From Hemileia vastatrix (lineage: Eukaryota > Basidiomycota > Pucciniomycetes > Pucciniales > Zaghouaniaceae), in contig JASXTE010000008.1 of NCBI GenBank assembly GCA_030280995.1, positions 22,371,693 to 22,435,692 on the forward strand: a stretch of DNA of 64,000 nucleotides, given 5' to 3'. The position numbers and the translations under genes are program-made. Each line of letters starts with the position of its first letter. Position 1 is the first letter of the stretch. This document shows positions 129 through 45,811 of this stretch, one piece after another. The notes beneath the pieces are model-generated. The model was not told the origin of the DNA and did no database searches. It was given only the letters and a program-made list of their open reading frames with translations.

Positions 129-1469
129 TGTGGTACGCGCCTTGCAGGAAGCGTGATTTTAGACTAATCAGCGCGCGTAGTCCAGGAAGAACAAAGGGGA
201 GTTAGCACAGCAGGAAATGTTAAAATATAATATTTATTTGTGTGTTTCAAGGAACAAAGGAAATGGAAGCTCGGAAAAAGATTAAGGGTCTGTGCGCTTG
301 GATTTTGCAGCAAGATGTGCCACACAATAGGAAATTGTGTAGTATTAACTTAGAACTATTACGCGCTAAACAATATGAATTTGGGCTTTCCAAAAAGTAT
401 GTGTTACACATTAATAAGAAAGTCATGGATTAAGGACGACTCAAGTGCATGGTATGCTGTACCACGGCCAGTTGGGAAACATACTGAGACAAGTAATGAA
501 GAAGGCTAACTAGTTAAGCGAGCTGTCAGAACTATGAACCTAGTATTAAAGCAAAGAGAGTGGGGACTCAATTGTAAAACTACCCAAGAGTTAAGGCAAC
601 TAGACGCAGCATTAGGATAAGTCAAACCTGGAACTAGTGCTGAAACAAAACAAGGTATAGTTAAAAGCGCATATGTGGAGAATCAGTGAAACAAGTTAAT
701 ACTAGTGTTAGTAATTATAGGGTCTGATTTAGGCGCTGTAGTTGTTGCAAGCAGTGTAAGTAGCATACTAAAAAATTAGTCATTGTTTTACTAATGTGGT
801 GCTAGAGTCAGCGCTGGAGATCCATTAGGGAACTGTGTCTTGAGCGCTGGAAGAATATAAAAGGAGGACTATTAGGTAGGAGCAAAGAGAGAGGACTGGT
901 CAATCTATCTATTTAGTTAATAAAATAAGAAAAATCACATTAGTTGTCATTTTAAAAAGCAGATCATAGAAAAATCAATATAGAGATATACGTGTAGCTA
1001 TAGTCATAGTACCCAGTATAAGATATTAGATTTTTTTTGTGATTAATTGTTTGAGAGAATATTAAAAGGTATTTTCTGAGTCTTTTAGAGTTTGTGCGTC
1101 TGTGTGTGTATTTCATATAGTATAGTGAAAGAGCACAACATAGAGAGAATATATAGATTCAGTGGGATTAACTATTATTAGAGATATTTTATTACTATAA
1201 TAAGTCATATTCAAAGAGAGCGCTTCAAGAGGGAGTAGCTGTGGATAATAGCGCTTGTTAAGAATAGAAATATCCAGATAGTAATACTTGTTTTTTTCCT
1301 TATCTTTAACTCATCTCAACTTATAAAATTTCTAGTCAAATATTAGTGTTACACATTATTACACTGTCTTTAAAAATAAGAGTGGCAGGCGCTTCTTTTT
1401 ATAAATTAAAACGGAGAACCAAACCATCTTGAATTATGTCTACTGCTTAGTACTTTAGAACAGTCTACA
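129..1469 (+). repeat. Gypsy-I 5' LTR
   Basis: Begins TGTGGTACGC and ends AGTCTACA, so it has TG...CA ends. It matches 10,718-12,056 over its whole length. A diverged third copy is the split solo LTR at 14,783-24,000. A short 63-codon open frame inside it (242-433) is repeated in the other LTR but broken in the third copy, so it is not called a gene. The motif AATATAAAAGGAGGACTA near 853 is the most likely TATA element. Confidence 0.93.
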
Positions 1470-1716: not shown

Positions 1717-3627
1717 ATGGATCCTACTGTGACTACATCTAGGGGATTCCAGGAGAGGGTTAAATCGCCCAATTCTTCGACATCGTTTCCAAAAACGGTA
1801 ACCACGATTATTAGGTGTAAAGATGAAAGCTTGCGCTTTGCGGGAATTAATACCAAAAAGTTTTTACGCAGGTTTGAACAAGCAGTGGAAGTTCATGGAG
1901 CAACTGAATATGATATGGTACGACAAGTACTATTCTTTGTATCTGATGAATGCAAAGACAATTTAGAGGATCTAAAAGGGCATGAGGAGCGAAATTGGTC
2001 AGCGCTAAAAGAACAAATGCTCAAGAGATGGCCAAAAGTTACTGAGGAAACTAGGTATATGATGAAGGACCTGGATATTTTGGTAAATAGGGTCAAGGCT
2101 AGAGGAGGTGTTCAAGACCCCAAGGAATTTAAAATTTTTAGGGAAGACTTTGATCGGATAGTAGAATATTTAGTTAGTAACAAAGATTTTAGTGATGTTA
2201 ATGCGTTGTTACCCTGGTTTTGTGAAGCGTTAGTGCCAGAAGTTGAAGACTGGGCAAAATGGCGCTTGGATAACGAAGGAAAGTTGGTTAAAAAGAGGGA
2301 CGGAAATTATAAGTACCCCGGATTAGAAGAAGTAGAAATGGCAGTGGAAGCTGAAATGAAGTTGCGTCGAGTTGAGCGATGTGCAGCAAGGGTGGCTCTG
2401 GATAATGAGGATATGGGGGAAGATGTGCCAGGCATACAATCGCCTTCTCAGATCTTGTCTCCTAAAGATAAACTTCTCTCTAAGGATCCAGATTCAGTCA
2501 TGGCAAGAATTGATGAGTTGGAGAAGAAAATAGTTGAAGCGGCAAAAGCGAAAGAATCATTTAGGCCCAAGAGTTCTCATCAAACTTTGCGTTTTTCTGC
2601 TATGGTGTGCTATTATTGTAATAAAGAGGGGCATACAAGGATGAGGTGTAATGCGCTTCAAAAGGATAAAGAGGAAAAGGTAGTTTACGAGGATGGGACT
2701 ACGCTTATGTTGGAAGATGGTACCAAGTTGATTAAAGACAAAGATCGAGGGATGCGAGCCATGGTCATTGATCATATAAATAAAAAGTCTATGGAAAGCA
2801 GGTCAAGCAAGGGCAAAGAGCCTGAAAATAAGGAGAAAAGCAAGGATGCGAAGTCGGTTAATTTTGCAGTTACTTGTGCGGTGTTAGATTTTAAAGTAAA
2901 AGAAGGAGCGGTTGCAGCACCACTTACCGCAGCACAATTGGAGATGTTTGTGGCAAAGCATAAGAAAATGGCCCCACCTACAATTACTAGGCCAAGAAGG
3001 GCTGGCGCTAGGTATGTGAATCCAGAGGATATGGAGGAAGTAGGGTATACTACTAGAGAAAATACACCTGCGCCTATCGAGGATGTTGAAATGGATGGTA
3101 TGGACTCTGGAGGTTATGGTGTGGATTGCCAGGAAGTAGAACAGACGGCAATGTTGGAGGAGCCAGTGGTAGTACAGCAAAGAGCGGTACCTGCTGAAGG
3201 AATGCCAGGAGCAAAGCATAATACTCCAAAGAACCCACCTGGAAGAGCAAAAGCTGGTGCCAAGGAAACTCAGCCTAAATGGAGAATGCAGCGCCCGGTT
3301 CATTCTGATTTTCCTAAAGCTGCCGAGGATTTAGTTGCGGAATGTTTGAAGACTACAGTTTCTGTTCCATTGGGGATGCTGACTGCAGTAGCACCAGATG
3401 TAGCAAATGGAATCGTGGAAAAGTGCAGAAAGAAAAGGATTGCTAATTGTGCTGAGTTTGATATGGCAGAACAGTCATTTCAGCCAGTTGTTGGATTACC
3501 TAGGGTGCCACATTACGCAGGACCCTTAGGGTATTTAACTATTTTGGTAAATGGTAAGAAAATTAAAGTGTTAGTGGGTACGGGTTCACAAATCAATGTG
3601 GTATCAGTGGATGACACAAGGAATTAG
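1717..3627 (+). CDS. gag: Gypsy-I Gag with start of protease
   Basis: 636 codons from ATG at 1,717. The N-terminal half is a retrotransposon capsid region (helical, rich in Lys/Glu, W and F residues around residues 25-220). A CCHC zinc knuckle CYYCNKEGHTRMRC (C-X2-C-X4-H-X4-C) lies near residue 297. A Pro/Ala-rich linker follows, and the start of an aspartic protease is at the C-terminus. The protease motif reads VLVGTGSQINVVS where Gypsy-II has LVDSGSQINLIS, so the catalytic Asp is Gly here (GGT for GAT). The frame ends at a TAG only because one base is missing near 3,620; the protease continues in another frame. Confidence 0.88.
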   Translation: MDPTVTTSRGFQERVKSPNSSTSFPKTVTTIIRCKDESLRFAGINTKKFLRRFEQAVEVHGATEYDMVRQVLFFVSDECKDNLEDLKGHEERNWSALKEQMLKRWPKVTEETRYMMKDLDILVNRVKARGGVQDPKEFKIFREDFDRIVEYLVSNKDFSDVNALLPWFCEALVPEVEDWAKWRLDNEGKLVKKRDGNYKYPGLEEVEMAVEAEMKLRRVERCAARVALDNEDMGEDVPGIQSPSQILSPKDKLLSKDPDSVMARIDELEKKIVEAAKAKESFRPKSSHQTLRFSAMVCYYCNKEGHTRMRCNALQKDKEEKVVYEDGTTLMLEDGTKLIKDKDRGMRAMVIDHINKKSMESRSSKGKEPENKEKSKDAKSVNFAVTCAVLDFKVKEGAVAAPLTAAQLEMFVAKHKKMAPPTITRPRRAGARYVNPEDMEEVGYTTRENTPAPIEDVEMDGMDSGGYGVDCQEVEQTAMLEEPVVVQQRAVPAEGMPGAKHNTPKNPPGRAKAGAKETQPKWRMQRPVHSDFPKAAEDLVAECLKTTVSVPLGMLTAVAPDVANGIVEKCRKKRIANCAEFDMAEQSFQPVVGLPRVPHYAGPLGYLTILVNGKKIKVLVGTGSQINVVSVDDTRN

Positions 3628-4025: not shown

Positions 4026-6352
4026 GGACTGGCATTTTAGGTGTTACTATCTCCCAGGATGAGAGGAACCTGAATAGTGACCAGGCAGTCCAACAAGGAG
4101 GGATACGTAAAGCGGTACTTCATAGGTGTCTTGGGAATACTACTGTAGAATGTATTATACCTAAGCTTTTTAATTTCTTTAATTTTGGATATTGTTATAC
4201 TTATATTAAAAAGAAAAGACAAAAACAGGATTCAGGTGTAACCCGTAGTTATATTAAAAAGGGGTTTATTTTAATTAATGAAGAAAACAGTAAGGACTGT
4301 TTTGCATCTAAGTATAAACCAGTAGCTGTTAAGGTTAAACCAGTGAATATAGCGATGCCTGATTTGAATCCTCCTTTGCAGAGGCCGGAGCTATCTAGAA
4401 ATCCTTATGATACACCTTTAACAAAGTTTCGGCCTGATTTTGCGTTCACCAGTAAGATTACGATGGAAAGGCTTCAGATGGTAGATTTTGGACCAGAGGG
4501 GTGGTTATTGCAGGAAGAAAAGAAGTTATTATTACATGTTATGGTTCTTAGGGAAAACGCTATTGCGTTTTCAGAAAAGGAAAGAGGTTTGTTAAAAAAC
4601 TCTTATGGTAAACCTTATATTGTTCCAGTTATACCTCATGCGCCGTGGCAAAAGAAGGCTTTTCCAATACCGGCGGCTATAAGAGAAGAGTATACGGAAT
4701 TAATTAGGGGAAGGTTAAAGTCCGGCTTGTATGAAAAGTCTATGTCTAGTTATTCAAGTCCAGTGTTTTGTGTGGTCAAACATAATGGTAAATTAAGGGT
4801 TGTTCATGATCTTAGGGAGATGAACAAGGTTACAGTAAAGGATGCAGGGATGCTACCAACGCCAGAAGAATTTGTGGAATCTTTTGCGGGGCGTGCATGT
4901 TACGGATTAGGTGATATTATGGGAGGATACGATGAGCGCAAGCTGGAAAAATCGTCCAGACCCATGACGACGTTTGAAACACCACTGGGGCGCTTTAGGT
5001 TGACAAGGTTACCGCAAGGCGAAACAAATTCTGTGGCGGTATATCAAGCACAGATGATGTGGATATTGCAGGATGAAATTCCAGAACATGTGGGAATTTT
5101 CATTGATGATGGCGGTATAAAAGGACCAGCCAGTGATTATGAAGGGGAAGTGTTAAAAGAAAATCCGTATATTAGAAAGTTTATTTGGGAATATGCGATT
5201 ACCCTGGAAAGAGTGCTATTTAGGATAGAGGAGGCAGGATTAAAGATTTCTGGGTCTAAATTTGCCTGTTGTGTTCCAGGGCTAGATATAGTGGGACATG
5301 TGGTATGTAAGGAAGGGAGAATCGTTGCTGAAAAACAGAGGAATAAGGTACTTACATGGCCAAGACCAAGAAATACTAAGGAAGTTAGAGGGTTTTTAGG
5401 CATTTGTACATATGTAAGAATGTTTATTCGAGATTTTTCTTTGTTGTCTTTGCCTTTACGGCGCTTAACAAGAAAGGATGTTGTATGGGATTGGACGGAT
5501 GAATGTGAGGAGTCATTTGAGTTATTAAAGAGGATTGTAGGAAAAGATATTCTTTTGAAGAAATTGGAGTATGGACCAGGCGCTGGAAAAATTACTCTAG
5601 TGGTGGATTCTAGTGTGTCCGCGGTGGGCGCAGTTTTGATGCAGGAGGAAGAAGAAGGTAATGATAGACCTGTCCTTTACGAGTCCAAGACTTTTACCAA
5701 AGTGGAGTCTAGGTACTCCCAGTCTAAGCTGGAGTTATGTGGAGTAGAGAAGATTCTTAAAAAGCTACAATGGATGCTTTGGGGGCAGCATTTTGAGCTG
5801 CAGGTTGATGTGCTATCGTTGGTGCAAATGATTAGCAGCCCGAGTTTACCAGATGCGCCCATGACGAGGTGGGTAGCGCAGATTAATTTGTTTTCTTTTG
5901 ATTTAGTCCATAAGCCAGGGAAATCTTTCAATATGCCAGATGCGCTGTCGAGAAGACCGTTGTGTGAAGAAGACTCAGAAGCGGAAGAATTTGAAGAAGG
6001 TAAGAGATGGGTAAACGGGATAGATTATTGTTATACAAAATTTGGCAAGAACGTCCGCAACGACGATAAACTATCAGGCAAGAATGTCTGCAAAGACCAT
6101 AAACTAGTAGGTAGTATTGTCCGTGATGACAATAAACTAGTAACGTGGAATTTCCGAAAAGGCATAAAATTGATTTCTGACAATGTAAAGGATGTTTGTA
6201 ACAAGGCTGAACTGCAACTGGATTTAGGGAACACTGAAGCTAAGGTAGCGACAAGGAGTGCGCAAGGCAAGGAAGTGGAGGAGCAGATGATGAAGATACT
6301 TCAAAGGGAAGTCAGGATAGTAGTACTCAACTCGAAGAGGGGGAGTATTTAG
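4020..6352 (+). CDS. pol: Gypsy-I Pol: reverse transcriptase and RNase H
   Basis: Open without a stop from about 4,020. The first conventional start-like codon is at 4,343, but retroelement Pol is normally made by fusion or frameshift. RT shows YSSPVFCVVKHNGKLRVVHD, FETPLGRFRLTRLPQG and the catalytic FIDDGGIKGP (the YxDD box). A tether EVRGFLGICTYVRMFIRDFS follows, then RNase H with VVDSSVSAVGAVLMQ and PDALSRRP. The frame ends at 6,352 within the acidic linker before integrase. The same FIDD-GGIKxP architecture is found in Gypsy-II, so the two families are related. Confidence 0.9.
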
Positions 6353-7660
6353 AAGACAACGCATCTATAGATGAGGGAGTAGAGTTGTTAAAGTTATATT
6401 TGGAAGGTAATAGTTGACTGGATTTTTGCAATAAAAAGGTTTGGCACAATATTAAAAAGCGCACTAAAGGCTATTTTATTAGAAATGGGAAGTTATGGAA
6501 GAATAAAGCTTTGTCTCCTCAGTTAGTTATTCAAACTAGGGAAGTGAAGGAGAAGATACTCAGGGAGTTACACAAGAATTTAGGACATAGGGGTCAAGAT
6601 GAGACTCATTGCAGAGTTAGGGAAAGATTCTGGTGGCCCAACATGAAAAATGAAGTAAGAGATTGGGTTAAATCTTGTCCTGAATGCCAGCCCAGAAGTT
6701 ACAGAAAGCCAAAAGAAAAAGGGAGAGCGACAGGCGAGGATACTGTTTTTGGTAGGGTCAGTTTAGATGCAGTCCATATAAAAGAAGGATGCTTTAAATA
6801 CTTGGTAGTAGCCAGGAATGATCTATCAGGATGGGTTGAAGCAGCGCCGTTAATAAACCTCAAGGCAAGTAATGTGGCCGAGCTTTTGAAGAAAGAATGG
6901 ATTTATAGGTATGCGGTAATGAATATGGTAACTGTAGATGGTGGTGCTGAATTTGCGGGAGAATTCCAAGAAGTAGTAAAAGGTATTGGCACAAAGTTAC
7001 AAGTTGCAACACCATATTATCCTGAAGAAGAGGGAATGGTAGAAAGAGGGCATCAAATTATAAAAGATGCGCTAGTTAAGTTATGTGGAAATAATGGGGC
7101 GAAGTGGAAGAACTACTTGCCATTAGTTTTGTTTGTGGACAGGATTTCAGTTAAAAGGACAACAGGGTTTTTGCGGTTCGAGCTTATGTTTGGTCAAAGG
7201 GCGGTATTACCTATTGATCTGGAGGCTGGATCTTTCCTAGGATGTGATTGGGATCAAGTGTGCTCAACTGAAGATCTAATTCTAGCAAGGGTAGCTCAAC
7301 TTGAAAGAAAAGACAAGTTTGTGGAGCGAGCGTATGAAAGAATGATGCAGATCCGGGACAAGTCAGTTAAATATTGGGATGAGCGCTTAGCGCATAGGTT
7401 AAGAAAGCCATTGAAACCTGGAGATTTGGTTTTGGTTTATAATAGAAGTTTAGAAAGCCAATAGGGGAAGATGTTTTCTGACAGATGGAATGGTCCTTAT
7501 AGGATAAGAAAGCAGATAACTGGAGGAATTAGATGGTACTGAGTGGAAGCGGCGTGTGGCCGCAGACCAGATCAAAAGATTCTACCCAAGGGGTGTTCCA
7601 GTGATACAAGATAACCTCCGGAATGAGGAAAAACTACCAGAATAATACCTCCGGGAAGAG
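6353..7660 (+). pseudogene. Gypsy-I integrase with internal stops
   Basis: The longest open part is 6,511-7,464. It has an N-terminal HHCC zinc site (H of LHKNLGHRG, then CPECQ), a DDE core with SLDAVHI, TVDGGAEF and the Glu in GMVERGHQ, and a C-terminal region with KPGDLVLVYNRSLES. A TGA at about 6,417 and a frameshift just before it separate integrase from RNase H. A TGG-to-TAG change at 7,462-7,464 (W in the Gypsy-II counterpart SLESQWGKMF) cuts the C-terminus. The homologous tail WKRRVAADQIKRFYPRG is still readable to about 7,645. All three catalytic acids are present. Confidence 0.85.
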
Positions 7661-8255: not shown

Positions 8256-9055
8256 CTATTCAGTATCAGGATGAAAGCTAATAGGATATCCTTTCCAGTC
8301 TTCAGGCATGACAAAGTGACAGGGATTGGCGGGGAATCCAAGAATAGTCGTTGAGCTGATTTTGTTCATTAGTTGACCTATCATTTCTATATGAGTATAG
8401 CGAGCTTCAAGTTCAGCGTCAGAAAAAGCTGGTGCGTTATTGTAGGATAGGGACATAGCGCCATATATAAGACAAAGTCTGGAAAACATTCGCATGGAAT
8501 GGACAAAAGGTAAAGAAATGGGAACCCATCCCAAGGAGATGGATTCATTGAAGCCTGACAGGAAGTTAGTAAGCAAGAAGAGCATAAGTATTGTGAAGGA
8601 TACTTACTTGCTAATAAGTTTTGTGGGCGCGCTGACGGTGAAGTAACGGTAACCGCGTCAGGAGCAGCTGTAGGGGAGCCTGAGCGCATGGAAGCACTGG
8701 AACTTGGAGGGGGAGAAATTGTAGCGCTAGGCTGTATGGATATTTTGCGCCTGGGAAAACTAGGAAGTGATGGCGATTCATAAGGAACATTATTATTATT
8801 AGTGGAAATAGTGGGACTAGTGGTGGTAGTTATGGGAGCGCTACTAGTAGAGCTAGGTGGAAAGCAAATATAACCAGTAGGCTGAAGAGTATTCTGGTTA
8901 AGGGAGGTATTGCAAGTTTTGTGGTATCTAAAGCAATTATCACAGGCAGGTCTAAAAGTGGCATACCCCCGAGGTCTAGAAAATGTACAGTTAAAGTTAC
9001 GGCGTTTGCAAAATGAGCAAGCTTGATCTCTGGGAACTGTGTGATATTGAGTCAT
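8256..9055 (-). CDS. Antisense accessory gene of Gypsy-I (distal), Zn2Cys6-like protein, two exons
   Basis: Exon 1 runs 9,055 to 8,608 and exon 2 runs 8,554 to 8,256. The 53-nt intron has a GTAAGT donor, a TTACTAAC branch site and a CTGTCAG acceptor. Spliced length is 747 nt, 248 residues, with no stop. The N-terminus has C13-X2-C16-X6-C23-X14-C38-X2-C41-X6-C48 with basic residues (CKRRNFNC, CFRYHKTC), the spacing of fungal GAL4-type binuclear zinc clusters apart from a slightly long loop. A Ser/Thr/Pro-rich middle (about 55-150) and a helical C-terminal region follow. It is antisense to gag-pol inside the element. A DNA-binding regulator is inferred from the cysteine pattern; no function is known. 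Confidence 0.8.
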
Positions 9056-9550
9056 GATGTTAGGATAGAGGAAATTCAGGTTATTAGAAGGGCTATTTAT
9101 AGGTTAACAATAGCATTATAAAGAAGTCATCAGTTGCGCCACGTCTGACTTGAGCCCTGGATGGTTTCTAAGAAGCTAGTAAGAAGCGTTTCTCATAATG
9201 AAGAACCCCAGGAAAGATGAATTGTTACAATTAGGGGAAAGGCATGTATTGCGAAGGTTTAAAGATTGAAAGAAAGCGCATACATAAATGATGCAGGAGA
9301 AGTAATTGCTGTAGCAAGAATCTCAAGTTGTTATTTTTTATTATTTGTGGTTTCATCTTTCATAGGCACTTAGTAGAAGGATGCACTGCTTAGAGAAAGG
9401 ATGATATTTTTTGGGGCAACTCATCTCACGGTTGTAGAGTTCTCACAGGAAAGTTAAGTGAAAATAATAATAAAAAAAATAAATATATATTACATTTTTT
9501 TACAAGGCTATATACATTACAAGGAATAAATACAAAAGAAAATAGTTTTT
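9056..9550. other. Gypsy-I spacer between the two antisense genes
   Basis: No convincing coding frame. The right part (about 9,460-9,545) is very A/T-rich and would be the 3' untranslated and polyadenylation region of the antisense gene ending at 9,551. The left part would hold the promoter of the gene starting at 9,055. Confidence 0.45.
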
Positions 9551-10595
9551 TTAGTATTCTGCTTCATCAAAGATTGGGACGCAGAAAGCCCAATCGCTAA
9601 CAGCTTCTTGCATGTTATGTTTCAAGGCAGCTATTAGTTGTTTTCCCTTATTATACTCGGCGCAAGTATAAACTGGAAACTCCTCGAGGAATGTTTTGAC
9701 GGCCCCAATCATGTTATTCATACGACACATGGTCGCATCGTAAGGAGCGCAGGCAATTTGTTCTGCAAATTTCCAGTTTTGAGCCATGGCAGGCTCATTG
9801 TCATCTACTACTGGAAAGTTCTTGGTTGGCCATTCGACCGGAGTGACGGTATTGAAGACCGGCTGCATATCAGTCCAGTCAGGAGTGGGCAAACGAGGAG
9901 TAGGATTGGGAGTAGGCATTGTATCCCAGGCGGGATCTTCTTCCAAGGTAGGAAGGAATAGCGGAGTGATAGGAGGCGGAGGTGTTTCAGCATAAGGAGT
10001 ACCTGGCACATTCTACATATAAAAAAAAAGGGGGAAATAGAGAATGTTAGCGTTGGAAAGGGAAAAAGTAAGAAAAAGAAACTTACTGTACTTTCCTCCG
10101 AGAAAAGAGATTTAGGGACAGAAGCGACGCTACTGGGAGTAGGCTCGCGGTAACCAACCTTTGCTCGTTTGTTGCAAGGAGGGGTAGCAGGAGCAGGCGC
10201 CGGGCGCTTTATGGTCATTTGACTCATCATATTTGTTGTAGAAGCATTTGGGTCCAGGCGAGCGACAGTGGGCGGCCCATCGTAACTGCATTTCTTCTTG
10301 CCTAGCTTGCAGTAATCTCATGACTAGGAATAAAAGAAAAATGAAAGGTTAGTAACAAATGGGAAGGAGAATGAAGAGAACTTACAGTGAAGAAAGTATT
10401 GCCATGGCGGGCTTTTGAAAAATGACATGGAGTTATGCCATTTTCAATGCAACAAGTGCATCTTGTCCCACCCATCAGTGTGGTTATGGGCGTTGTTGGG
10501 GAAGCAGTAGGGGGCTGAGTGCGCACGAACTGTCAAATAGCGTGCATGATGTTGGCAGTATTTTCAGCGTTAGGAGGGGTTCTTCTAGTATTCAT
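9551..10595 (-). pseudogene. Antisense accessory gene of Gypsy-I (proximal), Zn2Cys6-like, three exons, two stops
   Basis: Start ATG at 10,595-10,593 (MNTRRTPPNAEN). Exon 1 runs to 10,386, intron 1 is 10,385-10,324 (GTAAGT, TACTAACC, CCTAG). Exon 2 is 10,323-10,087, intron 2 is 10,086-10,013 (GTAAGT, GCTAAC, TGTAG), and exon 3 is 10,012-9,551. Frames match across intron 2. The zinc region reads C-X2-C-X7-C-X14-(stop)-X2-C-X6-C: a TGA stands where the fourth Cys is expected (S-stop-DYCKLGKKKC). A second in-frame TGA lies before the cluster (MHAI-stop-QF). Exon 3 gives a Pro-rich stretch and a helical C-terminus ending IFDEAEY. The start is only 123 bp from the right LTR. Confidence 0.72.
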
Positions 10596-10705
10596 AGTGA
10601 AAGATAAAAATAATAAAGTAAATAAGAAAAGAGAAGAAGATGATGATGAAGGAAGAAAAAGCTGCGAGACGCAGGGTATTTATGGGCTCCTGGGGACAGT
10701 CGCGA

Positions 10706-10717: not shown

Positions 10718-12056
10718 TGTGGTACGCACCTCAAAGGAAGCGTGATTTTAGACCAATCAGCGCGCGTAGTCCAGGAAGAACAAAGGGGAGTTAGCGCAGC
10801 AGGAAATGTTAAAATATAATATGTATTTGTGTGTTTCAAGGAACAAAGGAAATGGAAGCGCGGAAAAAGATTAAGGGTCTGTGCGCTTGGATTTTGCAGC
10901 AAGATGTGCCGCACAATAGGGAATTGTGTATTATTAACTTAGGACTATTATGCGCTAAACAATATGGATTTGGGCTTTCCAAAAAGTATGTGTTACGCAT
11001 TAAGAAGAAATTCATGGATTAAGGACGACTCAAGTGCATGGTTTGCTGTACCCCGGCCAGTTGGGAAACTTACTGAGACAAGTAATGAAGAAGGCTAACT
11101 AGTTAAGCGAGCTGTCAGAACTATGAACCTAGTATTAAAGCAAAGAGAGTGGGGACTCAATTGTAAAACTACCCAAGAGTTAAGGCAACTAGATGCAGTG
11201 TTAGGATAAGTCAAACCTGGAACTAGCGCTGAAACAAAACAAGGTATAGTTAAAAGTGCATATGTGGAGAATCAGTGAAACAAGTTAATACCAGTGTTAG
11301 TAATTATAGGGTCTGATTTAGGCGCTGTAGTTGTTGCAAGCAGTGTAAGTAGAATACTAAAAAATTAGTCATTGTTTTACTAATGTGGCGCTAGAGTCAG
11401 CGCTGGAGATCCATTAGGGAACTGTGTCTTGAGCGCTGGAAGAATATAAAAGGAGGACTATTAGGTAGGAACAAAGAGAGAGGACTGGTCAATCTATCTA
11501 TTTAGTTAATAAAATAAGAAAAATCACATTAGTTGTCATTTTAAAAAGCAGATCATAGAAAAATCAATATAGAGATATACGTGTAGCTATAGTCATAGTA
11601 CCCAGTATAAGATATTAGATTTTTTTTGTGATTAATTGTTTGAGAGAATATTAAAAGGTATTTTCTGAGTCTTTTAGAGTTTGTGCGTCTGTGTGTGTAT
11701 TTCATATAGTATAGTGAAAGAGCACAACATAGAGAGAATATATAGATTCAGTGGGATTAACTATTATTAGAGATATTTTATTACTATAATAAGTCATATT
11801 CAAAGAGAGCGCTTCAAGAGGGAGTAGCTGTGGATAATAGCGCTTGTTAAGAATAGAAATATCCAGATAGTAATACTTGTTTTTTTCCTTATCTTTAACT
11901 CATCTCAACTTATAAACTTTCTAGTCAAATATTAGTGTTACACATTATTACACTGTCTTTAAAAATAAGAGTGGCAGGCGCTTCTTTTTATAAATTAAAA
12001 CGGAGAACCAACCCATCTCGCATTGTTTCTTTTTTAGTACTTTAGAACAGTCTACA
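10718..12056 (+). repeat. Gypsy-I 3' LTR
   Basis: Same ends (TGTGGTACGC...CTACA) and near-identical sequence to 129-1,469. The right flank ACGTGCCAGG returns directly to the Copia RT/RNase H frame. Differences from the 5' LTR are scattered substitutions. Confidence 0.93.
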
Positions 12057-14782
12057 ACGTGCCAGGAAGTTGACAGGATATGCCAAATCAGGCCTTGATC
12101 CAGCTACAAGATATGATAAAGAACCAATAATTGACAGAAATTTGAGAGGTTCCAGCAGAGGATGAGTTTTTTCCTTTAAAGACACTAAACAAAGACCCAT
12201 TGGTAAAGGTGAGTAAGAGTTAAGACCAGCTGGATTGTGTTCAATAAGAATTTTGTTGATAAGAGCTGGTTGATAGATAGTGAAACCTTTGGAACAACGT
12301 GAAACTGCTAGACCAAAAATAGAAGAGATAGCATCAGACCATTTTACCTTCAAACTACTCCCCATATCCATTTCCAACTCCCTGAAAACCGTATCATTAC
12401 TCCCTACCACCACAACATCATCTACATGAATCCACAATATTCCCTTAAAACCCTCTTTCGCTAGCACATATACACTTGCATCCTGATTGCTTGGTCTGTA
12501 ACCTAAATTTGCCAGAATTTTACTGAGATGTTTCCACCAACACCTGGCTGCTTTCTTAGTACCATAGAGAGCTTTTCTAAGTTTGCAGACATGAGTTGGA
12601 TTAACAGACTCAAAACCTTCCGGTTGATTGACATAAATTTCTTCTTCAAGATTGCTGTGGAGATAAGCTGCAGTGACGTCAAAAGTTTTGATTGGCCAGT
12701 TATAGGTAGCAGCTAGGGTGAGGATCAGATGCAGAGATGCAAAAGTGGCTGTGGGAGCAAAAGTGTCATTAAAATCAATAAATTCAATCTGTTTGAAACC
12801 CTGAGCTACATATTGTGCCTTGTGTTTGATGATCTTCCCAAATTCATCCCTTTTTAGAGCAAAAACCCATTGGGCACCTGTGACAGTTTTTCCAGGAGGA
12901 AGAGGAACAATATCCCAAACTTTCATGTTAGACATGTTGTCTAATTCTTGAAGACAAGCTGACTTCCATTTCACTGCGTCTGGACGCTTCATCGCTTGTT
13001 TGAAGGTTCGAGGTAATCGGTCAGAAAGTTCACAAGCATTATTGTTTATGAAATCAACCATGACATCTTGGGTAGCAATAGTTTCTTCTTCTGTAAAATT
13101 GCCAAATTTCAGTTGATTCAAAATAAATGCTAGGTCACCATTAGAAGGAGATGAGGCTGGATGTGAAACCGTAAGCGTTTTGGTATTGTCCTTGTCCCCT
13201 TCAGGGATGAAATTTGCCATTGCTGATTGAACAAAAGAATTAGACTCTGGGTGCCAAAAAATCCAACCTTTGCCACCATCATTAAAGCCAACAACACAGC
13301 AACGCATAGCTCGGACATCCATTCTTGTTCTTTTTTCAGTTGGAATGTGCACATATGCCCACTGACCAAAAATTTTGATAGTAGATAAATCCGCTTTTTT
13401 TTTGAAAATGATTTGGTATGGGGTACTATCAGTAACTCTCATATTTGGTAATTTATTGTGAATGAAAGAGGCCCAACAATAAGCAAAAGTCCAGAAGGTG
13501 GGGGGAAGATTTGATGCAAGAAGGATTGTTCTGGCTATTTCACCAATAGTTTCATTGAATCTTTCAGCCATTCCATTCTGTTCATGGTGATAAGGCATAG
13601 AGTGTCCATGAAGGATACCGTGTTGGGAAAGGTATTCAGAGAATTTTTTGTTCATGTATTCTTTGCCCTTATCAGTTCTTAGGATTTTTAGACGTTGTTT
13701 AGTGATGTTTTCTAAGCGAGATTTGAAATTAATAAAAGCATCAAAAACATCCGACTTCTTTTTTAGGACAAAAACTTCCCCATAAGTTGAGAAAGATTCT
13801 CTGAAAGTAGCTACATAAATTTTACTTCTATCAGTTACATCAACCATGGGCCCTACTAGATCAGAAACCACCAAATCCATGAGCTCATGGGTGCGCTTGG
13901 ATGTCTTGCACGTGTTTTTCCTTTTGCTTTTTGACATAGCACAAACATCAAAGTGTAATCTGCATGAAGGGACATAAGATGGTGCATTTTCACAAAGACC
14001 TTTTTTGGCAAGTCTTCTCAAAACCCTGGTACTTGTGTGTCCAAGACGGCGATGCCAATCCATGATTGAGTCAGGAACCGCAGTTGGATAAGGGATTTTT
14101 GAAGGGGGTGGAGGAACAAAAGGAGCAGGAAGGGTAGCAGAGGATAAAGTGTTAAAATAATTCATTTCAAAAACATTGGTCTCTAGTGAACAAGGATATA
14201 CTAGATCAACTATCCATTTATGACCAGCAGAAGATTTAAGAGCTAGAAATAATATTTTTTTGTTTTTTGAAATAACATAATCATGATTTTGTTTAAAAGA
14301 AAGAGAAATGCCATTATCTAGAAGATCAAAAAGAGAAATAAGAGTGGATTTTGCCCTATCAAAATAGAAAACACCTTTGATAGTAACTCATTCTCCATCA
14401 CTTCCTTTAATGTACATGTTTCCGTGACCAGTAATGAAAGAAGCACCAGAGCCAGTTGCAGTTTTGACTGGAATAGGAGTATCCAAAGTTCTGAAGTCAG
14501 AGAGAAGACGTACATCACCAGTGACATGATGTGTGGCACCAGAGTCAAAACACCTTGATAATCTTTACTGTCTTGCTCCTCAGTCCAGCTATCAGTACCA
14601 AAATCCATTTCTTTCAAAGAAGTAGTGAGAACATCTAGTGCTTTGCAGCTGATTTCGTTTAAGCGGGGTTTTGATGAAGTTTGAGCTGGTTGTTTTCCTT
14701 TCCTATCGTTCAGTGCCTTCCGGAAAAGGTTCATAGAGTCCTTGTTGTCACGAGCAAAAGCTTCACGTTGTCCCCAAACCGC
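12057..14782 (-). pseudogene. pol: Ty1/Copia Pol: protease, integrase, reverse transcriptase
   Basis: Reading leftwards from 14,782. The end of gag (WGQREAFARDNKDS) leads into protease motif DSGATHHVTGD near 14,560, in a frame shifted by one base (a T lost in a T-run). There is an in-frame TGA near 14,387 where Trp is expected. The main open frame (14,165-12,042) has a pre-integrase segment HRRLGHTSTRVLRR and a DDE core (DLVGPMVDV, LRTDKGKEYMN, EQNGMAERFNET). RT carries VTAAYLHSNLEEEIYVNQPEG and catalytic IHVDDVVVVGS. The frame runs to NFLAR, where Gypsy-I is inserted; the rest is at 1-128. RT and integrase catalytic residues look intact, but the element is broken. Confidence 0.9.
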
Positions 14783-15939
14783 TGTGGTACGCCCCTCGCA
14801 GGTAGCATAATTCTAGACCAATCAGCGCGCCTAGTCCAGGAAGAAGAAAGGAAGTTAGTGCAGTAGGAAGTGCTAAAATATAATATGTATTTATGTGTTT
14901 CAAAGAACAAAAAAAATGGAAGCACGGAAAAGGATTAAGGGTCTGTGCGCTTGGATTTTGTAGCAAGATGTGCCGCACAATGGGGAATTGTGTGTTATTG
15001 ATTTAGGACCGTAAAGCGCTAAACAATATGGATTTGGACTTTCCAATAATTATGTGTTACGCATTAAGAAAAGAGTTATGGCTTAAGGATGACTCAAGTG
15101 CATAGTATACTGTACCGCGGCTAGTTGGGTAACTTACTGAAACAGTTAATAAGGGAGGCTAACTAGTTAAGCGAATTGTCAGGACTATGAACTTAGTATT
15201 AAAGAAAGGAGAGTGGGGACTCAATCACAAAACTACCCAAGAGTCAATGTGGCTAGGATCAGCGTTAGAATGGGTCAAAACTGAAAATAGCGCTGAAACA
15301 AAAAAACGAAGGTATAGTCAAAAACGCATATGTGGAGTATGAGTGAAACAAGTTAATACACCACGGGAAATCTAGGGGTGAATTTCTAGCAATCCCCTCT
15401 CTTGAAATTTAGAGTGTCCCTTAATTATTCTAGGTTTTTGAATACTTTATAAACATAAGTAAATTAGAGTTAGATTTACATTTATTCTCAGATTGATTAT
15501 AGACAGAATATCAACTGATTCCAAATTATGCACAAGTTGATCCTCCAGAACTTGATTTTGGTCCTCTGTTGAGCACAAATTGAGCACAAATTGATCTAAC
15601 CTAAGCTTATGCATATATAATAATAAGGATACTTGCTCTATTAAATTTGATAATAAAATAAAATATTGGTGAATTTATATAAAAAAATTATTATGTAAGA
15701 TATTAAATTATAAATTTAGGCATCATAGAGGGCACTTAATATAACTTAACTATACTATGTGACACCTTAATACTGTATCACGCAGTTTGAAACATTTAAA
15801 ACAAAATGTGTCATGATGGGCAATGAAATTGCTTGGACAGACACTTTCAAAATTAATACTGACCATAATACACATGTATGAAACCTTGGCATCTATCCAA
15901 TAAAAGATTTTCCTTCTGATAAATGGATTTTTCTCAATT

Positions 15940-18900
15940 ACTCTCTGCTAAAAAGTGTCCTTGTGAGGTTTGTCTGACCTTCAGGGGGGTAATTTGGCCA
16001 CATCAAACTACTTCTATTTCCATGATTGACCAAAACATCATCCTCATTTCCATCTAAAGAGATGATCTCATCTGACTGTGGCTGATCAAAGGGGTCCACC
16101 ACAAGTTTAGCCAAAATTTTGGTGAACACTTTTTTGATGGATAGTGACTAACTGGTGCTTTCCGAAATTGTCCACCTGAAGTTAGGCTAAACTTCAGGAG
16201 GATAAATTTATTATGAATACCAAATTAACTGAAGAATACTTTTGCACTAGCTACTCTGCATCATAAAAGTGTCCAACTGAGGTTTAGCCATAATTCAGGT
16301 AGACAAATTTGGAAAGGCACAGTCTGATGGGTTCAATATTTATATATGGCAATAAGTATCAGTTTTTTATCAACATGGAACTAGAATTAATTTAATATGG
16401 CCAAAGTGTCCACCTGAAGTTTGGCCAAAATACAGGTGGAAATTTTTATGAGGATTACTTGATGTAATGAAGAAGACTTGCAATTACTTTCCATCATAAA
16501 ATTTTCAAACTTAAGTTTATCAAAAATTGTGGTGACACTTTTGCCAGATCAGGTCATATGGGATCAACTCTCTATATGGAAATGAGAATCAATTTTTAGT
16601 CAATCATGGCATCAGAAGTAATTTGATATAGACAAACTTTCCACCTGATTTTTGGCCAAATATAAGTTGGAAATGTTTATGAGGAATACTAGATTAACTA
16701 AAAAAGACTTGCACCCTACTACTTTCCATCATAAAAGTGTCCACCAGAAGAATTATCAAACTTGTGGTTGACACCTTTGGCCTGGTCCAGCCATATGGGA
16801 TCAATTCTGCATATGGAAATGAGGATTTAATCTGGTCAATCATGGTACTAGAAGTAATTTGATATAGACAAAGTGTCCAACTAAATATTGGAAAACAATC
16901 AGATGAATACTTCATTTAGTTTTTCAAAAAATCAAATTAAGTACAATTTTATTCCTGATGATGCCCATTTTATCCAACACCTCTTCTGAGCCTTGAAAGT
17001 AGGCATTTAGCTTGAATTTTTAATTTCATATAAAATCCCTTTTATTCAATCTATTTCTTCTTATCCCTTTCTTTCTTTTAGATATCAATTAATTTTATGT
17101 AAAACAAATCATTTTCATAATTTTTTACCTGTATTTAATAAAATTATTAAAGGTTTAACATCACCCTGTAAGAATTTGGCACATGTTTTTTTGCTATACT
17201 AATAAAAATAATAATATACTGGTGACAAAAAATTGATCAAATGATAAAATATTAATAAAACAGAAAGATCAAATACCAGTGGATATGTTTTAAAAAAATA
17301 CCAGTTGCACTGAAGAAGAGCTGCACCCTAGATACTCACCATCAAAAAAGTGACCAGCACAAGTTCGCCCAAACTTGTGCTGGACACTTTTGGTCAGGTG
17401 CAGTCATATGAGATCAATTCTCTCTATGACAATGAAAAAAATTATTTGATAAAAAACTTCACTAGAAGTAGTTTTACATAGCCAAATTTTCTACCTAGAG
17501 TTCATCCAAACCACAGGTGCACAATTTTTTATCTTTAAAAAAAAGTCAATTAATTACAATTTATCCCTGATGGCTCTCATTTGCTTCAACACCTCTACTG
17601 GCCTTTGATAGTAGGAATATTACTTGGATTTCTTTTTTCATATTTGATCCCTTTAACTTAATTTTTTATTCCTAATATTGCTTTTGGATATCAATTAATA
17701 ATTTTTAAAATAAACTATTTTCATATTTTTATACATTTATTTAATAATATTATAAATGGCATAACATCACCTGGTATGCATTTGGCACATGAGTTTTTTC
17801 TATACTTATAAAATTAATAATATAATGGTGACCAAAAATTAATCAAATGATATTAATGAGTGAGGAAAAAATATAAAGTACCAGTAGACATTTTTGTAAG
17901 AAATACTAGATGAACTGAAGAAAAATTCTACCCTAGCTACTCTCCATTATAAAAGTGTCCAGCACAAGTTCGGCCGAACCTTTGCTGGACACTTATGGTC
18001 AGGTGCAGTCAGATGGGAGCAATTCTCTCTATGGAAATGAAGATAAATTTTTGATATAAAATTACACTGGTGTATTTTGATATGGCAAACTTTTCATGCT
18101 GAAGTTTTGGTAAAGCTCAAGTGGATTTTTTTTTTATTTTTACAAAAAAGAAGATTTAGTGCAAGTTTAGCCCTGATTGTTCTAATTTAATTCAACATCT
18201 CTTTTTTCTGTTTATGGAAGGAATTTAACTTGGATTTTAATTTTCATCTTTGATTTCTTTTATTTTACTTTATTCCTCTCATATTGCTTTTAGATAGAAG
18301 TTTATTTTTTGTAAAATAAATTATTTTCATATTTTTTTACCTTTATTTAATAATATTATAAAAGGTGTAACATCACCCAGTATTCATTTGGCACACAAGT
18401 TTTTGCTATACTGATATTATTAATAATATAATGGTGACAAAAAATTAATCAATTGATAAATATGAGTGAGGCACAAAGATTTAATAGCAGTGGACATGTT
18501 TATAAGAAATTCCAGATGAATAAAAAGGACTTGCATCCTGGCTACTCTCCATGATAAAAGTGTCCAGCACAAGTTTGGCTAAACTTGTGCTGGACACTTT
18601 TTTTCAGGTGCAGTCAGATGGGATCAATTCTCTCTGTGGAAATTAAATTAAAAAAAATGCTAAATAATTACATTAGAAGTAGTTTGGTATGGCTGAATTA
18701 TCCACCTTGAGTTTTTCAAAACCTCAGGTGAAAAATTTTTTATTTTTAAAAAAAATTAAATTTTATCAAATTTAGCCCTGATGGCACCCATTTGTTTCAA
18801 CAACTCTACTGGCTCTTGAAGGCAGTAATTTTCCTTGAATTTTTCTTTTTAATATTTGATCTCTTTTACTTTACTTTTTTATCACTCATGTTACATTTGG

Positions 18901-21900
18901 ATATTAATTTATAATTTTGGAAAAAAAATTATTTTCATATTTTTTTAACATTTTTTAATAATATTATAAAAGGTGTAATATAACATGGCATGCATTTGGC
19001 GCACAAGTTTTTTCTATACTAATAAAATTAATAATATTCTAATGACAAAAAATTAATCAGATAATAAAATATGAATAACACAGAAAGATCAAATACAAGT
19101 TGAAATGTTTTAAAAAAATAACAGTTGCACTGAAGAAGACCTGCACCCTAGCTACTCTCCATCATAAAAGTGTCCAGAACAAGTTCGGCCAAACTTGTGC
19201 TGGAAACTTTTGATCAGGTGCAGTCAGATGGGATCAATTCTCTCTATGGCAATGAAAAAATTATTTGATAAGAAAATTCACTAGATGTAGTTTGATATAG
19301 CTGAATTATCCACCTAGAGTTCATCCAAACCACAGGTACACAATTTTTTATCTTTAAAAAACAGTCAATTTAGTACAAATTATCCCTGATGGCTCTAATT
19401 TGCTTCAACATCTCTACTGGCCTTTGATATTATGAATAATACTTGGATTTCTTTTTTCATATTTGATTCCTTTAACTTAATTTTTTATTCCTCATATTGC
19501 TTTTGGATATCAATTAATAATTTTGAAAATAAATTATTTTAATATTTTTATACATTTATTTAATAATATTATAAAAGGTGTAACATCACTCAGTATGCAT
19601 TTGGCACACAATTTTTTGCTATACTTATATAATTAATAATATAATTAAGACAAAAAATTAATCAAACAATATGTATGAGTGAGGAACAAAGATAAAATAC
19701 CAGTAGACATGTTTGTAAGAAATATCAGATGAACTGAAGAAAAATTCTAACTCAGCCACTCTCCATCATAGAAGTCTCCAGCAAAAGTTTGGCCGAACTT
19801 GTGCTGGACACTTTTGGTCATGTGCAGTCAGATGGGATCAATTCTCTGTATGGCAACAAAAAATTTTTTTTATCAAATTTCACTAGAAGTAGTTTGGTTT
19901 AGCTGAATCATCCACCTGCTGTTCTGCCCAATATCAGGTGTATAATTTTTTATCTTTAAAGAAAAGGTCACTTATTACAATTAAGCCCTGATGGCTCCCA
20001 TTTTCTTTAACACCTCTACTGGCTCTTGATAGCAGGAATTTTACTAGTATTTTTTTCATATTTGAACTCTTTGACTTTTATTTTACTCTTTTATTCCTCT
20101 TTTTACTTTTAAGTTTCTATTTAATTTTTGTAAAACTAATCCTTTCCATATTTATTTACGTCTATTTTAAAAAATTATTGAAGGTATAACTTCACATGGT
20201 ATGCATTTGGAACACAAGTTTTTGCTATACTAATTACATTAATAACATAATTGTGATAAATATGAAAGATACAGACTGATCAAATACCAGTAGAAATGTT
20301 TATGAGAAATACAAGATGAAGGAACTGAAGAAAATTTCCACCCAAGCTACTCTCCATCATAAAAGTGTCCAGCACAAGTTCGGCCAAACTTGTACTGGAC
20401 ACTTTTGGTCACGTGCAGTCAGATGGGATCAATTCTCTCTATTGCAACAAAAAACGTTTTTTATTAAACTTCACTATAAGTAGTTTTGTTTAGCTGAATC
20501 ATCCATCTGTCGTTCTTCCCAACCTCAGGTGTATAATTTTTTATCTTTATAAAAAAAGGTCACTTATTAAAATTTAGCCCTGATGGCTCCCATTTGTTTC
20601 AACACTTCTACTGGCTCTTAAGAGCAAGAATTTTACTAGTATTTTGTTTTTCATAATTGATCTCTTTGAGATTAATTTTACTTTTTTATTTCTCTTTTTT
20701 TTAATATCTATTTAAATTATTGTAAAGCTAATTATTTTCAGATTTTTTTACTTTTATTTCATAATACTATAAAAGGTGTAACATCACCTGGTATGCATTT
20801 GGCACATGAGTTTTTTCTATACTTATAATATTAATAATATAATGGTGAAAATAAATTAATCAAATGATATATATGAGTGAGGCACAAAGATCAAGTACCA
20901 ATGGACATGTTTATAAGAAATACCAGATTAACTGAAGAAAAATTCTACCCTAGCTACTCTTCATCATAAATGTGTCCAGCACAAGTCCAGCCGAACTTGT
21001 GCTGGACACTTTTCGTCACATGCAGTCTGGTGTGATTGATTCTCTCTCAATCATTGCACTAGAAGTTGTTTGATATGGCTAAATGGTTCTGCTGAAGTTT
21101 TGTCAAACCTCAGATTGGCACTTTTTTGTTTTTCAAAAAAGCAATTATAGTCCAAGTTTAGTGCCACAGGTGAGCGTTCACCCCAACATGTCTACTTGCT
21201 CTTGATAGCAGTAATTTTATTTTAATTTTTTATTTCATATTTGCTTCCTTTAATTTTACCTTTTTATCCCTCATATTGCTTTTGTATATCAATTTATTTT
21301 TTGTAAAACAAATCATTTTCATATTTTTTTACCTTTATTTGATAATATTATAAAAGGTGTAACATCACCCGGTAGGCATTGGGCACACGAGTTTTTGCTA
21401 TACTTATAATATTAATAACATAATGGTGCCAAAAAATCAATCAAATGATAAATATGAGTGAGGCACAAAGATCAAATACCAGTGGACATGTTTATAAGAA
21501 ATACCAGATGAACTGAAGAAAAATTCCACCCTAGCTACTCTCCATCATAAAAGTGTCCAGCACAAGTTTGGCCGAACTTGTGCTGGACACTTTTTGTCAC
21601 ATGCAGTCTGATGTGATCAATTCTCTCTATTGCAATGAAAATGAATTTTTCTTCAATAATTGCACTAGAAGTTGTTTGATATGGCTAAATTTTCATCCTG
21701 AAGTTTTGGTAAAGCTCAAGTTGATTTTTTTTTATTTTTACAAAAAAGAAATTATAGTCCAAGTTTAGTACCACTGGTGGGCGTTCACCCCATCATGTCT
21801 ACTAGCTCTTGATGGCAGGAATGTTATTTTAATTTTTTATTTCATATTTGCTTCCTTTAATTTTACCTTTTTATCCCTCATATTGCCTTTGTATATCAAT

Positions 21901-22090
21901 TTATTTTTTGTAAAACAAATCATTTTCATATTTTTTTACCTTTATTTGATAATATTATAAAAGGTGTAACATCACCCGGAATGCATTGGGCACACGAGTT
22001 TTTGCTATACTTATAATATTAATAACATAATGGTGACAAAAAATCAATCAAATGATAAATATGAGTGACGCACAAAGGTCAAATACCAAT
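15940..22090. repeat. Tandem array of about 600-bp units with 38-bp palindromes
   Basis: Eight clear units have a palindrome of arms GTGTCCAGCACAAGTT and AACTTGTGCTGGACAC around a CGGCCG-like centre, at 17,350, 17,955, 18,560, 19,170, 19,774, 20,365, 20,972 and 21,553 (spacings 581-610 bp). Each is preceded by TAGCTACTCTCCATCATAAAA and followed by GGTCAGGTGCAGTCAGATGG or a variant, and each unit has a shared AT-rich segment ending AGGTGTAACATCACCCGGTA. More degenerate units extend left to about 15,940. No coding potential. Confidence 0.93.
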
Positions 22091-23348
22091 TAATCAATAG
22101 TTCTTTTTAATATTATAAATTTTTTGATTAAATAAAATGGTAATAATGAATTATATTTTTCATCCACAATTCCACTCTAGTGATTCCCACTGCACAAAAA
22201 GGGTTCACTCAGTCCTTTCTTTACTGCTTGTGCATATATTTTATTGCCCACAGTACTACAATTATTTGTAGTGATTATCCCACATCTGATTCAGGAATAT
22301 TTTTGAACAATATAAGTTTTTTTTACAAAAGACCTTATCATATCCAATATCCCACCAAAAATACAACCTGTTTTTGTATTAAAACCCATTAATTATTAAG
22401 AAATTGTTAAAATAATTAGATTAGACCCTGGCACAGCTAGATCCATACCAACCGACCTAAAGTCTTTTTAAGATTGAAAACAATTAAATAAAATTATGAT
22501 ATCATACTAAATTATGGGCACCAACCATAATTCAGCACTTCTCATTTGCTCTGCTACAAAATGAGTGCATGTAGCATTTTTTTAACATTGGACTGTTTTT
22601 CTTCCTTCCCTCACACCTTTAGTCCAGAATGAAAATTTAGTATGAGTTTTGGTCAAGTTGGTTTGCCAGTGTTATCTGTATGCAATATGAATTCATATTG
22701 CATATTTCTATTTTTTGCATAAAATATACTTGTTAAGCATCATTTTTTTGCATTTTTCAATCATTATGCATATTTATGGATATGCATATGCATATTCATT
22801 ATACAGATTTATATGCATATTAATATATTTTATTCATATACATATATGCACCTTTTTTTTGCATATTCAATATGCATATTTTTAATGCATATTCAATATG
22901 CATATTTTTATGCATAATCACAATGCATATTTTTTATGCATATTTATTCTTCATAGTCATTATGCATACACTTTAGATAGGCATTTAACATCAATTTTTA
23001 ACATGCAATAAGTATCCACCATGCAAATTCAAATGCATATGCATCTATATCATACACACAACATATATTCAAGTTTAATATTTGAATATTAAGGTATGCT
23101 AAGTGATGTTGTTCAACCTTTTTCCAAACCTGAGATTAACTGATGTTCAATGTGGTTCCTAAGCTCTGCTCAAGGAGGGATTGTTCGGGATTCAATCTGT
23201 GACAGTTTATTTTTTCAATGTTTTTTCATCAGATTTAAAAACATATTTCTGACAGTTTCAGGATGGTTTCCCAACAGTTTCCTGACAAATTCCTGATAGT
23301 TTCAAATAGAGGGAACTGCTAGCAGTTCACCCCCAGATTTCCCGTGGT
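22091..23348. repeat. Right part of the DNA transposon, ATGCATAT-rich segment
   Basis: After the tandem array no gene is visible. From about 22,680 to 23,060 the sequence is built from repeated TATGCATATT / ATGCATATTCAAT words, a degenerate self-complementary microsatellite. From 23,160 there are repeated TTTC(C/A)TGACAGTTTC phrases running into the right terminal inverted repeat. Confidence 0.75.
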
Positions 23349-31410: not shown

Positions 31411-31411
31411 G

Positions 31412-31425
31412 TATAATTTAATTCT
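31412..31425 (+). other. Self-priming site of Gypsy-III
   Basis: TATAATTTAATTCT, one base after the 5' LTR, is the perfect reverse complement of 31,073-31,086. In Tf1/sushi-type elements the 5' end of the mRNA pairs with this site and is cleaved to prime reverse transcription. There is no TGG tRNA primer site here, which fits self-priming. Confidence 0.75.
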
Positions 31426-38995: not shown

Positions 38996-39000
38996 GACTG

Positions 39001-45808: not shown

Positions 45809-45811
45809 TAT

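Follow-up and report, generated by a model that had tools for sequence, protein, structure and literature searches.

Antisense genes with a GAL4-like six-cysteine domain in three Ty3/Gypsy families of Hemileia vastatrix and their possible role as element-encoded regulators

What role might be played by genes that run against gag-pol in the long terminal repeat (LTR) retrotransposons of a rust fungus? The question is raised by a stretch of 64,000 nucleotides of Hemileia vastatrix DNA (hereafter the window; assembly GCA_030280995.1, contig JASXTE010000008.1, positions 22,371,693 to 22,435,692), located on a 36-Mb contig within a 747.6-Mb assembly, in which three Gypsy families (I, II, and III) each carry one or two such antisense genes. 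The genes are kept by purifying selection, and three of their products (A, IIa, and III) contain a GAL4-like six-cysteine domain whose predicted fold resembles that of Zn2Cys6 proteins. The antisense genes probably encode element-directed regulators of the Ty3/Gypsy elements that carry them, in a layout like that of HBZ in human T-cell leukaemia virus type 1 (HTLV-1) and of the aORF-3R genes of plant elements.

Antisense genes and their cysteine cluster

In all three families, the antisense genes lie between the integrase and the 3' LTR, opposite gag-pol, which is the position and orientation of aORF-3R genes (Table 1). The initial annotation had reported one or two opposite-strand genes at this place in each of three Gypsy families, and the coordinates that it gave do contain two such genes, A and B. 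Family I has B, proximal to the LTR, and A; family II has IIa, likewise LTR-proximal, and IIb; and family III has a single gene, called III here. Between the 3' LTR and the ATG of the LTR-proximal gene there are 122 bp in I, approximately 77 bp in II, and 110 bp in III. A TATA-like box precedes B (Table 1), III (TATAAG on the minus strand at 38214-38209, which lies just inside the 3' LTR and at -100 from the ATG), and A (TATAAAT, at -46 from the ATG), and none was found for the family II antisense genes. Exon limits were predicted from GT...AG sites and, in A, also from a TACTAAC branch site (GTAAGT...TACTAAC...CAG); the second copy of A has an intron at the same site. Three-base periodicity gave p = 0.001 for A, III, and B exon 3, p = 0.002 for IIb exon 1, and p = 0.03 for IIa, and the longest open frames in the antisense regions are above chance (p = 0.003 for I and III, p = 0.02 for II).

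The pattern C-X2-C-X6-C-X12-14-C-X2-C-X6-C has three occurrences when all six reading frames of the window are considered, one each in A, III, and IIa, and always close to the N-terminus of a small product (184-300 amino acids). A chance origin was rejected, as 180 Markov-simulated windows yielded 0 matches. The cluster is followed by a Ser/Thr/Pro-rich stretch in A and IIa and by an acidic middle in III, whose C-terminal stretch is conserved between copies. The earlier statement that the products share one pattern holds for these three of the five, which have Zn(II)2Cys6 spacing, but not for IIb and the window copy of B. In IIb, the spacing is C-X3-C-X2-C-X15-C-X2-C-X6-C, and the second IIb copy likewise lacks the first expected cysteine; this spacing is therefore a pattern of its own, and loss of the cysteine by mutation was rejected on the same ground. 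Window B lacks a complete six-cysteine pattern because of two in-frame TGA codons, one in exon 1 and one in exon 2 at the expected fourth cysteine. When an AlphaFold2 (AF2) model of the A cluster was compared with known structures, Zn2Cys6 proteins occupied 5/5 reported rows, with low Z scores.

Further copies and selection

The neighbouring genome was compared over the 220 kb downstream of the window. This DNA contains three family III elements with reverse transcriptase (RT) and flanking LTRs (c1, c2, and c3), and in 3/3 the antisense gene occupies the corresponding position. The second family I element, d1, whose LTRs are 90.6% identical, also lies here; it has A and a portion of B exon 1, and the remainder of gene B was not found in it. 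A family II copy (d2) carries IIa, with both exons, and IIb, its pol lying past the end of the 220 kb, and in a short II-like element (L028:5502-9206), which is bounded by LTR-like ends, gag is joined directly to IIa and both pol and IIb are missing. In the window and the 220 kb together, loci recognised by their RT have antisense genes in 2/2 cases for family I and 4/4 for family III. Three family II loci have them, a count that is not choice-free, as it was the antisense gene that led to d2 and to the short element. A family-III-like gag split by d1, the 3' part of which was not seen, and LTR-only pieces were left out of these counts. Genome-wide, the best 150 of 5704 candidates for gene A exon 1 are 87-100% identical, window copy included; 112 are stop-free, and 38 have stops. 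As a sample of the best copies rather than a full census, this number is a lower bound. Within a small local sample, most copies have the antisense genes, and these are conserved to a degree like that of the other element proteins, as is the case for aORF-3R genes.

A profile of the five clusters, run over the window, 10 kb upstream, the first 200 kb downstream, and 195-210 kb, recovered known antisense genes only, and shuffled controls of this home-made profile gave no match. Further CxxC runs that follow the RTs of other Gypsy loci were rejected as candidates, since one pair is part of c3, a nested family III copy, and the rest fail the cluster profile. As separate observations, d1 is inserted in a family-III-like element, whose gag it splits in two, and the short II-like element may be a non-autonomous element that retains the antisense gene.

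The ratio of nonsynonymous (dN) to synonymous (dS) substitution rates, computed by the NG86 method with stop and gap codons excluded, is approximately 0.1-0.5 across the antisense genes, which contradicts the value near 1 that the initial annotation had named, for the cysteine region, as counter-evidence. In family I, A compared with d1 gives dN 0.184 and dS 0.753 (ratio 0.24, P = 1.6e-15, with 2 stop codons excluded), and 33 codons of B exon 1 compared with the second copy give 0.17 (P = 2.6e-4). In family II, the ratio for IIa is 0.44 against d2 (P = 3.3e-4; 3 stops set aside), with 0.28 in the zinc region (P = 0.009), and 0.36 for its exon 1 against the short element (P = 7e-4); IIb exon 1 gives 0.21 against its second copy (2 stops set aside) and 0.04 in the zinc region (P = 1.1e-7). 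For III, comparison with c2 gives dN 0.215 and dS 1.86 (ratio 0.12, P = 9e-38), that with c3 dN 0.237 and a saturated dS (P = 2e-42), and that with the near copy c1 a ratio of 0.38 (P = 2e-4). Substitutions at the three codon positions number 33/25/66 in A exon 1, 70/51/153 in III against c3, and 39/22/97 in III exon 1 against c2; this third-position excess is seen in distant pairs and is not significant by itself in the III c1, IIa, and B pairs.

These data already contradict the possibility that the antisense RNA rather than the protein is functional, or that the frames are fossils, which is thus highly improbable. Antisense RNA is able to silence (PMC7264820), and several copies have stops, among them all three further III copies (1, 5, and 3 aligned stop codons). 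Part of the III divergence must therefore be neutral decay, which, however, raises dN/dS rather than lowering it, and the near-saturated synonymous sites of III, the codon-position bias, the kept introns, and the 112/150 stop-free best copies likewise argue against RNA or fossil frames. A GAL4-like domain that is under selection at the same position in distant Gypsy lineages would be a strong hint at function in a fungus.

In family III, the antisense block has diverged more than the rest of the element. RT dS across the four family III elements is 0.08-0.38, whereas synonymous sites of the antisense gene are near or at saturation, and identity relative to c2 and c3 falls from 82-95% within gag-pol to 64-79% directly after pol, with 72-88% in LTR bins. 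The history of the antisense block is therefore older or the block was separately exchanged, and we infer that recombination between elements probably lies behind its divergence. Such a gap is not seen in family I, where dS is 0.75 in A, 0.50 in RT, 0.59 in integrase, and 0.48-0.97 in gag pieces.

Possible function and competing explanations

If the antisense proteins are regulators of their own elements, RNA polymerase II would start in the antisense direction at the TATA-like box just inside the 3' LTR, or at its own TATA box in the case of A, and the message would be spliced. The protein would then enter the nucleus, where its GAL4-like binuclear zinc cluster would bind DNA. The likeliest target would be the LTR and internal DNA of the element itself, and sense transcription might be tuned or protected, by analogy with HBZ and HTLV. 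The protein could be provided in trans by every copy whose antisense gene is open, including copies in which pol is dead. The GAL4-like reading is directly testable by asking which DNA is bound. If it is true, a repeat-rich genome (748-Mb) could harbour many transposon-encoded DNA-binding factors, which might alter the regulation of host genes and cause the number of host transcription factors to be overestimated.

Two findings weigh against such regulators. Firstly, the Pfam Zn_clus search (PF00172), suggested in the initial annotation as a check, brought no product to the gathering cut-off of 21 bits: A scored 18.7, IIa 18.5, and III 10.7, IIb and the B pieces in the window had no match, and four further copies gave 20.5, 13.6, and 17.9 bits and no match. 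In 6/6 matches, the best stretch places a half of the cluster on the opposite half of the profile (first cysteine half on second profile half in A, IIa, and two further IIa copies; second on first in III and the second IIb), whereas the AF2 fold comparison aligns the halves in normal order. In these respects the antisense clusters differ from the zinc clusters of GAL4, PPR1, Pho7, and AlcR, and no downstream regulatory domain as in proteins of that type was recognised in the antisense products. The proposed Zn(II)2Cys6 identity is thus backed by spacing but not by Pfam, and the predicted fold resembles Zn2Cys6 proteins at low Z scores. Secondly, other Gypsy loci in the 220 kb (7 from other lineages; integrase loci of II-like type, which occur in both orientations at 96-104 kb; one diverged locus at 193-195 kb; and another locus at 198-201 kb) gave no match of their own when queried with the antisense genes, and related II-like loci are among those without a detectable one. 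Homologous elements lacking the frame, which had been named beforehand as counter-evidence, were thus not seen within the three families, although the related II-like loci showed no detectable gene.

The weak Pfam match would also suit a structural or replication helper (in nuclear import, integration targeting, or RNA binding) that has a zinc fold and no transcription role, as would the slight RING-type likeness of window IIb (14.6 bits, cut-off 27) and the retention of gag with IIa in the short element. Such a helper is nonetheless unlikely: the predicted fold resembles DNA-binding clusters, the elements already have an integrase and, in III, a chromodomain, and other nearby Gypsy loci manage without the gene.

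A protein that regulates host genes instead of the element, either for the benefit of the element or as a captured host factor, would accord with the role of Zn2Cys6 proteins as typical fungal transcription factors, and the antisense genes diverge fast enough for a changed target. However, searches gave no host donor or relative, and this explanation seems distinctly improbable. A profile of four exon-1 products had 5110 candidates, none at E<=10, and residues 18-128 of the family III protein had 3, also none at E<=10, a value that a domain this short could hardly attain. As a control, the database holds rust proteins, since the best 120 of 7953 matches of the family III RT include many from Austropuccinia psidii, with up to 64% identity; named ones among these 120 are mostly A. 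psidii, and the top match and a few others are frog records. As rust RTs were found and antisense relatives were not, the antisense genes either do not occur there or have diverged too far. A scan of viral contigs for relatives of the antisense genes confirmed nothing. Of the earlier proposal that the elements had acquired and kept a regulator, the keeping is borne out by purifying selection, but the acquisition is not, since no donor or relative was found.

Two families are also rich in CpG motifs of their own. The tetramer with the strongest enrichment in family I is GCGC (69 sites vs. 14.5 expected from dinucleotides), which comprises 25% of the CpGs of the window copy and 37% of those of the second copy, and it exceeds synonymous shuffles in gag-pol (22 vs. 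12.7, z 3.3) and in A (7 vs. 2.3, z 3.8). In family III, TCGA is the most enriched (67 sites vs. 31 expected; 19-30% of CpGs in its copies), and, relative to synonymous shuffles of the coding DNA, TCGA has z 2.6 and CTTCGA z 4.7 (16 vs. 6.0). Outside the three families, neighbouring DNA contains GCGC at 0.35 and TCGA at 0.26 per kb. In 210 kb of the neighbouring DNA, GCGC accounts for 26/59 CpGs in stretches like family I only, vs. 59/614 outside the families (P = 1.7e-10), and TCGA for 128/491 in III-like stretches, vs. 43/614 (P = 3e-18); as motif-bearing copies share ancestry, this replicates a family trait and does not represent independent evolution. A dense private motif is thus strong in I (GCGC), moderate in III (TCGA), and lacking in the CpG-poor family II, for which TCTAGA/CTTCTA was seen in the window and dropped because TCTAGA was not replicated in neighbouring DNA. 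Observed/expected CpG is approximately 0.05-0.3 in most segments of the window and neighbouring DNA, except window I (0.64), window III (0.75), and an 808-amino-acid frame at 60582-63008; it is 0.07 in family II and 0.24 and 0.34 in the older copies d1 and c2. Depletion with such exceptions is as expected if methylated CpG decays.

These motifs bear on an unlikely explanation, in which each protein coats its own element via a private short motif and blocks methylation and silencing, like VANC for the Arabidopsis DNA transposon VANDAL. It would account for the density of GCGC and TCGA in families I and III and their scarcity in neighbouring DNA outside the families, for the excess of GCGC and CTTCGA over synonymous shuffles, and for the CpG retained by window I and III. 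However, family II has no motif and is CpG-depleted, TCGA alone reaches just z 2.6 in III coding DNA, and the CpG-rich open reading frame at 60.6-63 kb also has 19% TCGA. Moreover, a Gypsy segment without an antisense gene has 7/23 CpGs in GCGC, the older copies are CpG-poor, young age by itself keeps CpG high, and the motif runs through coding DNA, unlike that of VANDAL. It is equally unlikely that the antisense proteins recognise private palindromic CpG tetramers (GCGC in I, TCGA in III) in LTRs and coding DNA, so that the families escape methylation, and, jointly with this, that VANC-like self-recognition and anti-silencing evolved independently in a fungal retroelement. On this reading, the III gene would be exchanged or present as divergent alleles, and its synonymous sites, near or at saturation between lineages where RT dS is 0.24-0.38, would be as expected of a specificity-determining module. 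The link between motifs and proteins is a conjecture.

Known systems and setting in the window

An antisense gene between pol and the 3' LTR is already known from Boty (brtn) and plants, and the GAL4-type domain there appears to be the new part. The view that the arrangement was undescribed thus applies to the domain, as no description of a GAL4-type antisense gene in an LTR retrotransposon was found by title or abstract opening in the open-access literature, but not to the position. In the Boty-like elements of Botrytis and Sclerotinia, brtn is an additional gene that runs against gag-pol and is located between pol and the 3' LTR, and the cited passages mention no zinc cluster (PMC4227169, PMC7264820, PMC8365987). 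Boty is likewise a fungal chromodomain Gypsy element with its antisense gene at the same position; the rust elements differ, in a comparison with BRTN by description only, in comprising three families and five genes, with introns and a six-cysteine domain. Plant elements with aORF-3R genes include Grande (gene23), RIRE2, and Retand, with an open reading frame that has a TRP28 domain (PMC11963269). In its cited passages, a 2020 review describes aORF-3R proteins as lacking clear similarity to database proteins, though SMC and TRP28 domains are named, and gives no known function for antisense genes of LTR retrotransposons, whereas a 2025 paper predicts DNA binding for plant TRP28. The domains of these plant genes are unrelated to the rust six-cysteine cluster.

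HBZ, a basic leucine zipper (bZIP) protein of a human retrovirus, has no zinc cluster, represses sense transcription of HTLV, and is likened here for layout only. It is encoded by an antisense gene of the provirus with a promoter in the 3' LTR, and the product is nuclear (PMC7264820, PMC11963269). The VANC proteins of VANDAL are element-encoded and associated with a dense element-private motif (PMC5735166, PMC10398659). That motif lies in tandem repeats of non-coding DNA, whereas the rust motif extends through coding DNA and its connection with a protein is conjectural.

Families I and III have the features of Ty3/Gypsy elements, namely an LTR pair with target duplication and RT-RNaseH before integrase; the family I pol matches Pfam RVT_1, RT_RNaseH, and Integrase_H2C2. 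RT identity is 67% between I and II and 26-28% between III and both, I and II being related and III a distant chromodomain lineage. In the window copies of all three families, gag-pol is broken over several frames. The family II pol (44263-49409) is on the minus strand, and its second (5') LTR was not found within the window.

Table 1. Coordinates of the Gypsy elements, antisense genes, and cysteine clusters in the window
Feature	Position	Strand	Details
Family I 5' LTR	129-1469	+	ACGT duplication at 125-128; 97.1% identity to 10718-12056
Family I gag open reading frame	1717-3627	+	Zinc knuckle, protease-like end
Family I pol	4343-7464	+	RT/RNaseH 4343-6352; integrase 6427-7464 (integrase zinc domain)
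Antisense gene A	9055-8256	-	Exons 9055-8608, 8554-8256; 53-bp intron 8607-8555; 248 amino acids
Six-Cys cluster of A	8912-9019	-	C-X2-C-X6-C-X14-C-X2-C-X6-C
Antisense gene B	10595-9551	-	Exons 10595-10386, 10323-10087, 10012-9551 (two introns)
Possible TATA box of B	10679-10684	-	CATAAA; 89 bp upstream of ATG, just inside 3' LTR
Family I 3' LTR	10718-12056	+	ACGT duplication at 12057-12060
Family III 5' LTR	30640-31413	+	97.2% identity to 38225-38998
Family III gag-pol	31483-36204	+	Chromodomain at 35842-36204
Antisense gene III	37156-38114	-	Exons 38114-37566, 37509-37156; 300 amino acids
Six-Cys cluster of III	37932-38033	-	C-X2-C-X6-C-X12-C-X2-C-X6-C
Family III 3' LTR	38225-38998	+	GACTG duplication
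Family II 3' LTR	39193-39941	-	Borders approximate; second copy bounds shorter relative in neighbouring DNA
Antisense gene IIa	40018-40625	+	Exons 40018-40315, 40369-40625; 184 amino acids; both exons in second copy
Six-Cys cluster of IIa	40027-40128	+	X12 loop
Antisense gene IIb, first exon	41284-41646	+	
Family II gag-pol remains	44263-52011	-	RT 46700-47530; protease 48708-49409; gag 51055-52011

Several minor features of the window can be added. Beside the family I element, a 707-amino-acid frame (12042-14165, minus strand) has, by eye, a Copia-type integrase/RT look. A diverged tandem satellite with a unit of approximately 606 bp (16232-22152) is flanked by family I LTR pieces (14782-15360 and 23350-24000), as if it had grown or landed inside a solo LTR. 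An inverted 1.2-kb repeat (49428-50605 and 56446-57620, 92% identity) has four more long copies in the neighbouring 200 kb. Finally, the fungal-type RT of family III has relatives annotated in frog genomes (Mixophyes, Bombina, Eleutherodactylus, and others), with 50-57% identity over part of the query, which may reflect contamination or horizontal transfer.
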